Source: Methylobacter sp. S3L5C | Lineage (GTDB): Bacteria > Pseudomonadota > Gammaproteobacteria > Methylococcales > Methylomonadaceae | NCBI RefSeq assembly: GCF_022788635.1 | Contig: NZ_CP076024.1 | Location: forward strand, 3,635,503 to 3,699,502 | DNA: 64,000 nucleotides | Direction: 5' to 3' | Shown: piece by piece, positions 31,202 through 55,507 of the stretch | How positions within the stretch are numbered: position 1 is the stretch's first letter | Layout of the letters: the number at the start of each line of letters is the position of its first letter | Program-made: the position numbers and the translations under genes | The notes under the pieces: generated by a model | What the model saw: only the letters and a program-made list of their open reading frames with translations | Told to the model about the DNA's origin: nothing | Databases searched by the model: none

Positions 31202-32603
31202 TATCCTGAAAAGAAACAAAGCCCTATCCGTAAATCCGCTGAAAGCCAGCCAGCCCATAGGCGGTTCCCTGGCTACACTGGGGTTTAATCGCTCAATACC
31301 CATGCTGCATGGCTCGCAAGGTTGCACCGCTTTTGCCAAAGTATTTTTTGTTCGTCATTTCAGAGAGCCCATTCCGTTGCAAAGTACGGCAATGGATCAG
31401 GGTAGTTCGGTTATGGGTGCCGACGAAAATGTACGTGAGGGTATTAGAACCATTGCAGAAAAATCACGCCCTGCCCTGATCACTATTTTGACGACGGGAC
31501 TGGCAGAAACCCAAGGCGCTGATGTACACCGTAATGTCAGGGAATTTAGAGAAGCTAACCCGGAATTTGCCGACATTGCCGTCGTCGCTGTCAATACCCC
31601 TGATTTTACCGGCAGTGTTGAGACGGGCTACGCCGCGACACTCACGGAAATAATCCGTGCTTTAGTGCCGGATGCCAAAGATGCAGGGACTTGCCCGGGC
31701 ACACGCAAACGTCAGGTTAATGTTTTGGCAAATTACACACTAACACCGGGCGACCTGGAAGCACTTCGGGATATATTTGAGCAATTCCAGCTCAGACCTG
31801 TTTTTGTACCTGATATTTCTGATTCGCTGGATGGCTGTTTGACGGATGAAGATTTTAGCCCGGTGACTATTGGCGGTACCCCTTTGTCAGAAATGACAAC
31901 GCTGGGCGATGCCTTGGCAACTGTAGTTATTGGTGCCTCTCTTTGTAAAGCGGCAGAATTACTGGAAGAAAGAACCGGCGTGCCAACGGTTAGCCTGGAT
32001 CATCTTTACGGCTTGAAAGCCAATGATGCACTGATCAGCGCATTGGCTGAAATCAGCGGCCGAAAGGTGCCTGAACGCATTGAACGGCAGCGGTCACAAT
32101 TGCAGGATACCATGTTGGATACCCACTTTATGCTGGGTCAGTTAAGGATTGGGATCGCCGCCGATGGCGATTTACTGGGGGCATTTGTTGATCTGGTTCA
32201 GGAAATGGGCGCTGAAGTTGTTGCTGCGGTCACGTCGTGCAACGTGCCTTTGTTGGCGCGTATTCCCGTTGCCAGTATTAAAATTGGCGATCTTGAAGAT
32301 ATGGAAATTATTGGTAAAACCAATAAAGTTCAACTGGTGATTGGCAATTCTCATGCGGTTGATACGGCCCAAAGACTCGGCGTACCTATTTTAAGGGCTG
32401 GATTTCCGTTGTTCGACATTATTGGCGGTTATCAAAAAACTTGGGTAGGTTATCGCGGCACTAGGCAAACGCTGTTCGATTTAGCCAATCTGGTCATCAA
32501 TTATTCGCATGAAGAAATACCGGTTTACCATTCCATATATGCCCAAAAACCGGCCAGCGAACTCACCGAACTTCATTCAAGTAAAGCGCTGTCATGTCAT
32601 TAA
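31194..32603 (+). CDS. nifN: NifN, FeMo-co scaffold beta subunit
   Basis: A 469-residue paralogue of NifK starting [23 protein letters not shown] 31,194 overlaps nifE by 8 bases and has GAGG upstream, whereas a longer frame runs back into nif[19 protein letters not shown] keeps one cluster cysteine of the family. Partner of NifE in cofactor assembly. Overlaps nifX by 10 bases. Confidence 0.95.
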
Positions 32604-33127
32604 CCCGACGTATGCACGTTGTGCAATCTATTGATAAAAGGAATCTTATGGAAACAGCAATAAAAGTCGCTTTTGCTACTACCGATATGGAAACGGTTAA
32701 TCAGCATTTCGGTTCGGCAAAATCCTTTGCGGTCTATGCCGTCGATAGGAATAATTCAGAACTGCTGGAAGCCGCCCAGTTTGGCGAGCTTAATCAGGAT
32801 GGTAACGACGACTGCAGGGATGCAGGAGGTAGAGCAATGCAGGGAGCAATTGCCGAAGATAAATTGTCCGTCAAGATTGATTTACTGAAAGGTTGTGCTG
32901 CCGTTTATTGCCAAGCCATTGGTGGCTCAGCGATTAATCAGCTTATCCTGAAAAATATACAACCCGTTAAAGTACATGAAAACAGCAAGATTAAAGACTT
33001 AATCATTGATCTGCAAAATGAAATAAAAGCCGGACCTTCAAATTGGTTGGCAAAAGCCATTAATCTACATAAAAGTCCGGATCCTGATCGCTTTAAGAAA
33101 ATGGAGGATGAAGGTTGGGATGAATAA
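32594..33127 (+). CDS. nifX: NifX, cofactor carrier, with an in-frame palindromic-repeat insertion
   Basis: A 177-residue protein that carries NifB-co/VK-cluster between NifB, NifEN and the nitrogenase. KVAFATTDMETVNQHFGSAK is the NifX core. The start at 32,594 gives an N-terminus like that of Azotobacter NifX; ATG 32,648 with a better AAGGA site is the alternative. Between FGELNQDGN and EDKLSVKIDLL, where relatives read straight through, residues about 72-87 form an extra 16-residue segment encoded by a repeat that also occurs at 54,492. The frame is kept, so the protein may still function. Confidence 0.92.
   Translation: MSLTRRMHVVQSIDKRNLMETAIKVAFATTDMETVNQHFGSAKSFAVYAVDRNNSELLEAAQFGELNQDGNDDCRDAGGRAMQGAIAEDKLSVKIDLLKGCAAVYCQAIGGSAINQLILKNIQPVKVHENSKIKDLIIDLQNEIKAGPSNWLAKAINLHKSPDPDRFKKMEDEGWDE
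32807..32856 (+). repeat. Copy of a dispersed palindromic element inside nifX
   Basis: This 50-base stretch matches 54,492-54,540 except for one substitution and one extra G. The 54,492 copy is one arm of a larger inverted-repeat element; the nifX copy has only that arm. Confidence 0.85.
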
Positions 33128-54431: not shown

Positions 54432-54502
54432 TATGCTTGGCTTAGATGTGTGGTGATTTAAGTTCCCTCTCTTGTTGGAGATGGCTGAGGTGACGACTGC
54501 AC

Positions 54503-54622
54503 GGATGCAGGAGGTAGAGCAATGCAGGAGCAATTGCCGAGGAGAGTAAAATCAAGCAGTTACATTCCCCTCACCCAACCCTCTCGGCAACTGCTCCTGC
54601 GTTGCTCTACTTGCCTACATCC
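54503..54622. repeat. Large imperfect inverted-repeat (MITE-like) element upstream of cysE
   Basis: Arms 54,503-54,546 and 54,581-54,622 are mostly complementary (GGATGCAGGAGGTAGAGCAA against TTGCTCTACTTGCCTACATC). The left arm, extended to 54,492-54,540, is the sequence found inside nifX. No coding capacity. It occupies most of the 269-base gap before cysE. Confidence 0.8.
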
Positions 54623-54700
54623 ATGTAGGCATCCCTTTGGAGAGCGCTTGAATCGACATTGCATACAACATCATCGGCACACTTACCGGGAGCTTTGAAA

Positions 54701-55507
54701 ATGGTTATGGTCATGCCAAATAATATTAAAAGCCGGACAGAAACACCTCAGGGTTTTCTTGCCCAATGGCATGAAGATGTCTACTGTGTTTTTGGCCGGG
54801 ATCCGGCGGCACACAGTGTCTGGGAAATATTATTGACCTATTCCGGTGTTCATGCAGTATTAGTACACCGAATCAGTCACCGTTTATGGAAAGCCAACTG
54901 GAAATTGACCGCCAGAATTTTGGCAGCAATGGCCAGAATACTGACAAATGTTGAAATTCATCCAGGCGCGACCATCGGACGACGTTTATTTATCGACCAC
55001 GCCTTGGGCGTAGTGATCGGTGAGACAACCGAAATTGGTAATGATGTGACTTTATATCATGGCGTAACCTTGGGTGGTACGACCTGGAACAAGGAAAAAC
55101 GCCATCCAACACTGGGCAATAACGTATTGGTGGGTTCGGGAGCCAAAATTCTTGGCGCCATTACCTTGGGCAATAACGTTCGGGTTGGTGCCAATTCAGT
55201 GGTTGTTAAAGATGTTCCACCTTGCTGTACGGTAGTGGGTATTCCGGGACGTATCATTCAAAGTAAAGGCACGCAAATACAAAGCCTACAGGGTATTGAC
55301 CTGAATCATCATCTCATTCCGGACCCGGTAGGAAAGGCAATTTCTTGTCTGATTGAACGGCTTGATGAACTGGAAGCCAGACAAAACCAGTTCAATAAAA
55401 TAACTAGTGACGAAAACTGTGATAACTGTGAAGCAGAAAGTGTGTGTATTCCCAAGAAAGAGAGTAGAGAAACGATTAATCGCGTCTCTACCAGAGCGAG
55501 GATTTAA
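54701..55507 (+). CDS. cysE: Serine O-acetyltransferase, nif-linked, with repeat-coded tail
   Basis: A 268-residue CysE: N-terminal helical domain, then a left-handed beta-helix of hexapeptides ([34 protein letters not shown]) with the active-site histidines. It makes O-acetylserine for cysteine, feeding NifS. I chose ATG 54,701 with GGGAG upstream. The last residues ([14 protein letters not shown]) are encoded by a GTAGAGA palindrome (55,464-55,491), suggesting the original stop was displaced. Confidence 0.92.
55464..55491. repeat. GTAGAGA-family palindrome at the 3' end of cysE
   Basis: GTAGAGA...TCTCTAC arms with an ATTAATCGCG centre; same family as the nifH-nifD spacer repeats, here read as protein. 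Confidence 0.75.

Follow-up and report, generated by a model that had tools for sequence, protein, structure and literature searches.

Palindromic repeats that code for protein segments have so far been best known from the obligate intracellular Rickettsia. The Rickettsia palindromic elements (RPEs; Ogata 2000, 2002) are presented, in the passages devoted to them in PMC10969869 and PMC3733652, as short palindromes lying in frame within unrelated and apparently working genes. The GTAG REPs, intragenic ones included, are described in PMC3733652 (Di Nocera 2013), where two Xanthomonas species are reported to have REPs at roughly one and the same place in recB. From the sections of PMC8266576 that deal with its substrates (Corneloup 2021), the transposase TnpAREP cuts at a CT that is chosen with the help of the GTAG, and this GTAG resides on the substrate's own strand. 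Bacterial MITEs with coding potential, as they are introduced in PMC10969869, are non-autonomous and form in-frame fusions.

The window examined here (the whole stretch of 64,000 nucleotides) comes from Methylobacter sp. S3L5C, whose genome, designated G000, is a single contig of 4.816 Mb. Inside nifX it contains an element that would best be described as a REP-type hairpin that bears a GTAG tag and is preceded by another hairpin, the whole measuring 47 or 48 nt. A sequence-only reading of the window had likened it to the RPEs. This likeness stood for behaviour, as both insert in frame into unrelated protein genes (the RPEs having one preferred coding frame), but not for family. The RPEs measure ~150 bp and belong to Rickettsia in the account of PMC10969869, whereas our element has 47 or 48 nt, two short hairpins and a GTAG tag, and occurs in methanotrophs and mainly in Gammaproteobacteria among the genomes searched; its presence at the same nucleotide of nifX in four lineages is a feature of its own.

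With the GTAG REPs, as characterised in the same sources, the element shares the unpaired GTAG at the foot of a covarying hairpin, compensatory changes in the stem (5 of the 7 pairs of hairpin 2), tens of copies per genome, and an arrangement as single, tandem and inverted-pair copies, some of them inside genes. However, the GTAG REP unit is of 20–40 bp with a terminal GTAG, while in our element the GTAG is internal, behind hairpin 1; and GTAG REPs have a RAYT gene as neighbour, whereas no RAYT was found beside an intact copy in the four genomes examined. The RAYT/TnpAREP REPtrons have the GTAG tag, the hairpin and a CT/AG junction dinucleotide in common with it but possess a cognate transposase, of which none was found beside the copies in these four genomes. 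The element and the MITEs are both non-autonomous, but the element shows no target duplication and its ends are not inverted repeats of each other.

Words beginning with "methylo" are absent from the main texts of PMC3733652 and RepRanger (PMC12306157), and a literature text search with four pieces of the element sequence returned no paper. Among the papers listed on Methylobacter or Methylococcales together with REP or palindromic repeats, the titles and abstract beginnings hold no description of the element. Within the literature searched, to the extent just given, the element is a new family of a known kind, the in-frame palindromes. The new part is the recurrent entry into one gene, nifX, at the same nucleotide. 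A system like that of Rickettsia now turns out to extend across methanotrophs and into other Gammaproteobacteria. One protein may receive the same peptide again and again from small selfish repeats.

The filled and empty nifX site

32594 to 33127, plus strand: nifX open reading frame of 177 aa (PF02579, 6.1e-17; TIGR02663 nifX, 110.7 bits against a cut-off of 112).
32809 to 32856, plus strand: 48-nt element, inserted in the frame of nifX, by which the protein gains 16 residues (from alignment of filled and empty sites, with G034, G028 and G031 and with G245 and its sisters).

Translation placed the extra residues at 72–87 of the 177-aa frame, exactly where they had been proposed, and the reading frame is kept. 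The likelier start is the ATG at 32648, which yields a protein of 159 aa (91% match in G004 over 1–159) with the extra residues at 54–69. The protein reads GN-DDCRDAGGRAMQGAIA-EDKL, its insert peptide includes the stretch GRAMQGAIAEDK, and no native residue is replaced. The sequence-only reading also had NifX run straight from GN to EDKL. We found this direct junction at the empty sites of G034 and of the sisters of G004 and G245, and likewise in the sequence of the solved NifX, 9ian, which lacks the extra segment.

The limits of the insert were set by the empty nifX site of G034. In G000 alone they could be shifted by up to 3 nt, because CGA flanks both ends. The nif locus of G034 is 98.6% (left) and 99.8% (right) identical to that of G000 over 3.4 kb; around the site there are 3 differences in 576 flanking bases, none of them from −132 to +76, and the two NifX proteins are 100% identical apart from the insert. 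G034 has the exact empty site, GGTAACGA followed directly by AGATAAA, and G000 has the same bases with 48 nt in between. The junction is thus a clean insertion between an A and a purine, for which a target-site duplication is unnecessary. As the insert is absent from the near-identical G034 and from the other aligned relatives except the carriers described below, a gain in G000 is the simplest reading. Filled and empty alleles in near-identical genomes also make the tolerance of the protein to inserted peptides directly testable.

We compared the segment with the second copy in the window. The match of 32807–32856 to 54492–54540 differs, as had been noticed, by one substitution (G versus C in CANGG) and one extra G. 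The window holds two matches, whereas 100 shuffles gave a mean of 0.00. That the segment is a native NifX loop resembling the repeat by chance, or an effect of annotation, is an explanation to which we give practically no weight: none of the 100 shuffles had a match, G034 and other relatives have the empty site, 9ian passes from GN to EDKL, and the same peptide occurs in cbiE and in unrelated genes. These observations rule out a chance match and refute the native loop. An assembly error in a single genome is disfavoured by the four separate carriers. A search of Rfam gave no match within nifX.

The insert has a practical consequence. The NCBIfam nifX model (cut-off 112 bits) scored the insert-bearing proteins of G000 (32648–33124) and G004 at 110.7 and 107.2 bits, respectively, while three relatives without the insert scored 117.5–122.5 bits; for the insert-free protein of G034 the score was 121.4 bits. 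An insert-bearing NifX can therefore fall below the NCBI cut-off for the name, and automatic annotation may miss such proteins.

Structure, spread and target of the element

32812 to 32825, plus strand: hairpin 1, 5-bp stem and 4-nt loop, from the fold (in helix 1, 95.8% of the cells pair, and both partners have changed in 2 of the 5 pairs).
32829 to 32832, plus strand: GTAG tetranucleotide, unpaired, at the 5′ foot of hairpin 2, from conservation in the alignment of copies.
32834 to 32853, plus strand: hairpin 2, a bulged stem of 7 bp (in helix 2, 92.6% of the cells pair, and both partners have changed in 5 of the 7 pairs).
54494 to 54540, plus strand: 47-nt copy of the element between nifV and a cysE-like ORF, from sequence match.
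54583 to 54631, minus strand: second copy, diverged and inverted, whose hairpin 1 is longer (TGCCTACA-TGGA-TGTAGGCA; R1 match 57.5 bits).

Two hairpins are maintained by paired changes. In an alignment of 62 distinct copies, 94.0% of the cells of the two-hairpin structure pair and 7 of the 12 pairs are changed on both sides; 33 cells changed on both sides were observed against 11.1 in shuffles, and 0 of 500 shuffles reached as high. When the structure was slid along the alignment, at most 53.5% of cells paired. The control slid by −1 had 8 pairs changed on both sides against 7 in the real structure, these lying in 16 cells with 16% of cells paired. The clearest covariation is that of columns 31 and 42 (C-G in 33 rows, T-A in 22). 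Within the GTAG of these copies the T is invariant, the A and the last G are conserved in at least 90%, and the first G in at least 70%. Most full units have either 47 nt (GCAGGAGC) or 48 nt (GCAGGGAGC or GCATGGAGC). Some elements are nested one within another and have a CCCC/GGGG-like hairpin 1, namely L145, L159 (leuS), L144 (DEAD-box helicase) and L157 (mltG).

The copy at 54492 had been read as one arm of an inverted repeat before cysE. We observed this pair at 54514–54541 and 54583–54610, 93% complementary; the ORF downstream (54659–55507) is putatively cysE, a name taken from its own sequence and not from a search. Matches to microRNA precursors and CRISPR repeats in Rfam at this inverted pair were below the cut-offs, and we read them as hairpin artefacts.

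One of the two refutations foreseen was that the match at 54492 might not be a genome-wide repeat, and this fails. In G000 the wider repeat gave 37 BLAST pieces (E 1 or less), its core had 15 sites with three mismatches at most (0 with the reversed control pattern), and there were at least 24 model matches, all 24 candidates scored being matches. The element was present in 125 of 251 genomes and 24 of 48 genera of the order (E 1e-4), and in 38 of 398 genomes of the phylum (E 1e-8; G000 included, and some outside the class). The strict 48-nt pattern gave at least 120 stretches in named genomes; the genera among the matches listed comprise Methylobacter, Methyloglobulus, Methylovulum, Methylomonas, Methylomicrobium, Sedimenticola, Endozoicomonas, Thiohalomonas and others. 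Seven of 72,556 plasmid records carried the element, 5 of these 7 being from Pseudoalteromonas; 0 of 50,697 phage records did so, and viral contigs gave 7 stretches. Intergenic copies such as L016 and L034 reside within larger composite repeats (CACCACGAA...TTCGTGGTG). The L016 place holds another, unrelated repeat in G034, so that there is no clean empty site there, and it was rejected as a filled/empty pair.

Next, we considered how the element chooses its target, using 76 distinct sites other than nifX, with tandem copies and near-duplicate flanks left out. The base before the insert was A in 55 and T in 16, the base after it was G in 63 and A in 10, and each remaining position held at most 0.32 bits. 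The preferred target is A^G on the strand that bears the GTAG and C^T on the complementary strand. From this preference we infer that the element probably moves in single-stranded form, a Y1/HUH transposase cutting and joining it in trans. The dinucleotide target and the missing target-site duplication at nifX agree with such an enzyme. However, TnpAREP substrates carry the GTAG on the strand that is cut at CT, and our element has A^G there and the CT opposite, so the fit is only partial. The sole RAYT recognised in G000 (L172, G000:C1:4590875-4591198; NF047646, 199.8 bits) was rejected as the mobiliser, its flanks bearing another palindrome; this different palindrome (TAGGATGGGCTGAGG...GATGCCCATC) flanks it on both sides and represents a second REP system in G000. 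Around 33 Y1 places in 4 genomes, ~1.5 kb on each side, there was no intact copy and one weak compound match (31 bits).

Recurrence at one nucleotide of nifX

We surveyed NifX in 301 genomes of the order at a match threshold of E 1e-25. A match was present in 133, and 4 of these 133, from three genera, carry the insert; the segment is not general in NifX, and the carriers other than G000 (G004, G245 and G256) also have the repeat itself. The other foreseen refutation, that NifX proteins of lineages lacking the repeat would show this segment, fails as well. A span of 477 nt is found in G000, in G004 of the same genus and in G245 of another genus, and the fourth carrier, G256 of a third genus, is in a row cut by a contig end. 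Seven of the 133 rows cover part of NifX: the carrier G256, five empty ones (G032, G017 and G046, called empty by abutting pieces, and G252 and G264), and G293, whose row ends at a contig end short of the site. The remaining rows were judged by their span and not read singly.

All four carriers have the insert at the identical nucleotide, GGYAAYGA-insert-RGAYAA, and near each of them there are insert-free relatives (G034, G028, G138/G185 and G234). On a maximum-likelihood tree of 35 nif loci (the carriers and relatives with locus DNA, with the sparsely filled insert columns dropped; an earlier tree had 34) the insert needs 4 changes, and the starred branches by themselves force 4. A single change sufficed in 0% of 200 bootstrap trees, and the four carriers as one clade were rejected (AU p 1.3e-62). 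Four lineages that stay apart on the nif-locus tree have this one nifX site filled.

The inserts are nevertheless very similar. Pairwise they are 0–2 of 48 bases apart, those of G004 and G245 being equal, whereas the carrier flanks are 15–26 of 120 bases apart on the left and 21–34 of 120 on the right. The insert peptide DDCKDAGGRAMQGAIA is the same in three carriers, with K changed to R in the fourth. Among 102 other 48-nt copies at distinct sites, 0 are equal to the G004 insert, 3 are one base away and the rest are 2–5 away. The four inserts are closer to one another than to most other copies, which may point to a shared origin of the insert as opposed to separate entries.

Target preference is no explanation for the recurrence, as base composition does not favour the site: among 826 positions it ranks 40, 41, 72 and 78 in the target model for the four empty nifX genes scored. 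When the measured preference was combined with stop-free positions in a simple model, three coincidences at one nifX site had p 7.8e-4. The recurrence poses a sharp question: selection for one peptide, a site-directed choice of target or an insert-only transfer may underlie it.

We judge it probable that the nifX segment got there by recent insertion of a short, mobile palindromic element and that its recurrence arose by repeated independent insertion; for the recurrence itself, repeated independent insertion filtered by selection is the likeliest account. A non-autonomous element would enter as a single strand between an A and a purine with a Y1 enzyme supplied in trans, and copies in genes would persist if they have 48 nt, keep the frame and fall in a fold-tolerant loop. 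Survival of the 48-nt copies is suggested by their consensus, which is stop-free in 5 of 6 frames. In nifX, selection would admit few tolerated positions and one peptide variant, DDC[K/R]DAGGRAMQGAIA.

A different history is that an ancient nifX insertion was retained in four lineages and cleanly lost elsewhere. There is GA on both sides of the insert, so one deletion between these repeats could restore the empty site, and hairpins favour deletions between short flanking repeats. This history would nonetheless demand ~16–20 exact losses among the 35 rows alone (a hand count on the tree), and it leaves an insert that is 96–100% identical within flanks that have diverged by 13–28%; we regard it as very improbable.

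Somewhat better placed, yet still unlikely, is a lateral transfer of the insert alone. A single nifX insertion in Methylococcales would have spread via short-tract recombination that keeps the 48-nt loop but restores the mismatched bases of the flanks; such spread would resemble homing, with no nuclease involved. The closeness of the four inserts, with G004 equal to G245 and none of the 102 other copies equal to G004, speaks for such a transfer. A nested two-element insert in leuS points in the same direction: it occurs at the same site of G007 and G013, with 3 differences in 96 nt between flanks that are 80–85% identical. The flanks of nifX, on the other hand, show no donor-like DNA. G000 equals G034 from −132 to +76 and differs from G004 at −3 and +4, and the flanks of G245 group with G138, G185 and G274 and not with G000 or G004; these flanking differences gave no sign of gene conversion from a G004-like donor. 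Flanks that have diverged by 16–20% are moreover poor substrates for homologous recombination. For leuS a single origin was not rejected (AU p 0.075), which weakens its bearing on transfer and removes it as a second proven recurrence. Among the 55 genomes with a leuS match, the insert residues are in G007 and G013 only, and G046 has an element-free loop of similar length at the insert place.

The peptide itself may have been adaptive, the insert being selected in NifX or in cofactor-handling proteins and the recurrence being convergent. Three carriers have the same peptide and the fourth a single change (K to R), and inserts are also found in nifN, cbiE, cobN and hypF, genes of cofactor or metallocentre maturation. 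But only 4 of 133 NifX matches have it, and uvrC, relA, cusA, mltG and transposases without a common function have inserts too, so we consider this improbable.

Beside repeated insertion filtered by selection, we entertain a bolder reading with some doubt, namely homing of the element to a single exact nucleotide of nifX: the same peptide-coding variant would have entered there, in four or more lineages from three genera, and brought no flanking DNA with it. Its routes would be sequence-directed insertion or the insert-only transfer, the latter undescribed for REP-type elements in the portions of the literature compared. If the homing reading is true, the element would repeatedly supply a nitrogenase maturation protein with an in-frame peptide.

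Copies in other genes

The search for further copies inside genes, which had been suggested earlier, found the same peptide frame within cbiE of G000. With the insert, cbiE has 738 nt in G000 and G034 against 687–690 nt in five genus relatives and 672 nt in the more distant G046, and the insertion is consistent with the same boundary placing as in nifX. In domain scans, profile matches span the insert in 12 gene families: NifX, NifN, UvrC, HypF, squalene-hopene cyclase, DEAD-box helicase, hydroxyacyl-CoA dehydrogenase, CusA, CobN, YceG/MltG, RelA and CbiE. In a histidine kinase (HATPase_c) and in the RAYT transposase L240 the match is split into two stretches, and in HrpA, MurB, HisZ, FliK and a cupin protein the insert is outside the matched domain. 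The sequence-only reading had included neither these further invaded genes nor the recurrence in nifX.

To count such copies irrespective of frame, we defined a gene-like frame as at least 100 open codons on each side that are continuous if the element is removed. Loci collected for nifX, leuS, cbiE or Y1 reasons were left out, as were tandem copies, those with near-duplicate flanks and any lying no more than 330 nt from an end. Gene-like frames were found for 14 of 82 copies of 48 nt and 1 of 35 copies of 47 nt (Fisher p 0.037), the two samples having been gathered differently. Nine of the 14 were scanned and all had a family match; the rest (L208, L228, L234, L253 and L304) may be spurious frames. 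Gene-like ORFs read the element as DDCxDAGGRA.., as TxAxMQEVEQ.. or in one of three antisense frames. In an exploratory comparison (L204–L323), the T-A hairpin subtype was in gene-like frames more often than the C-G subtype, with 8 of 13 versus 13 of 66 at 60 codons and 5 of 13 versus 9 of 62 at 100 codons.

RAYT genes themselves provide a second, less complete case like the nifX recurrence. In L082 (1131–1179), L240 (774–822) and L316 (2724–2772) the element is in frame at the same codon and directly follows the presumed active-site motif, which reads HMH, HLH and YLH, respectively. The RAYTs of L082 and L240 are 43% and 68% identical to the RAYT of G000.

Some single copies deserve mention. 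In a Methylococcaceae nifN (L235, JAGXGJ010000152.1) the element is read in a different frame, PGKR-TTAWMQEVEQRREQLPE-RQVNV. At the end of hisZ before a purA-like ORF (L131, G035), a tandem array of elements makes a repeated in-frame C-terminal tail of HisZ. The copy at L031 (G000:C1:972088) gives the first codons of an ORF that may begin like a group II intron reverse transcriptase. A variant of the element lies in frame in the BREX gene pglX of a Salmonella plasmid (L416:1501-1533, NZ_CP133280.1; MFNA-DDCMDAGGRATQDAKA-DNRY), and the pglX of a Moellerella plasmid has the same 33-nt match.
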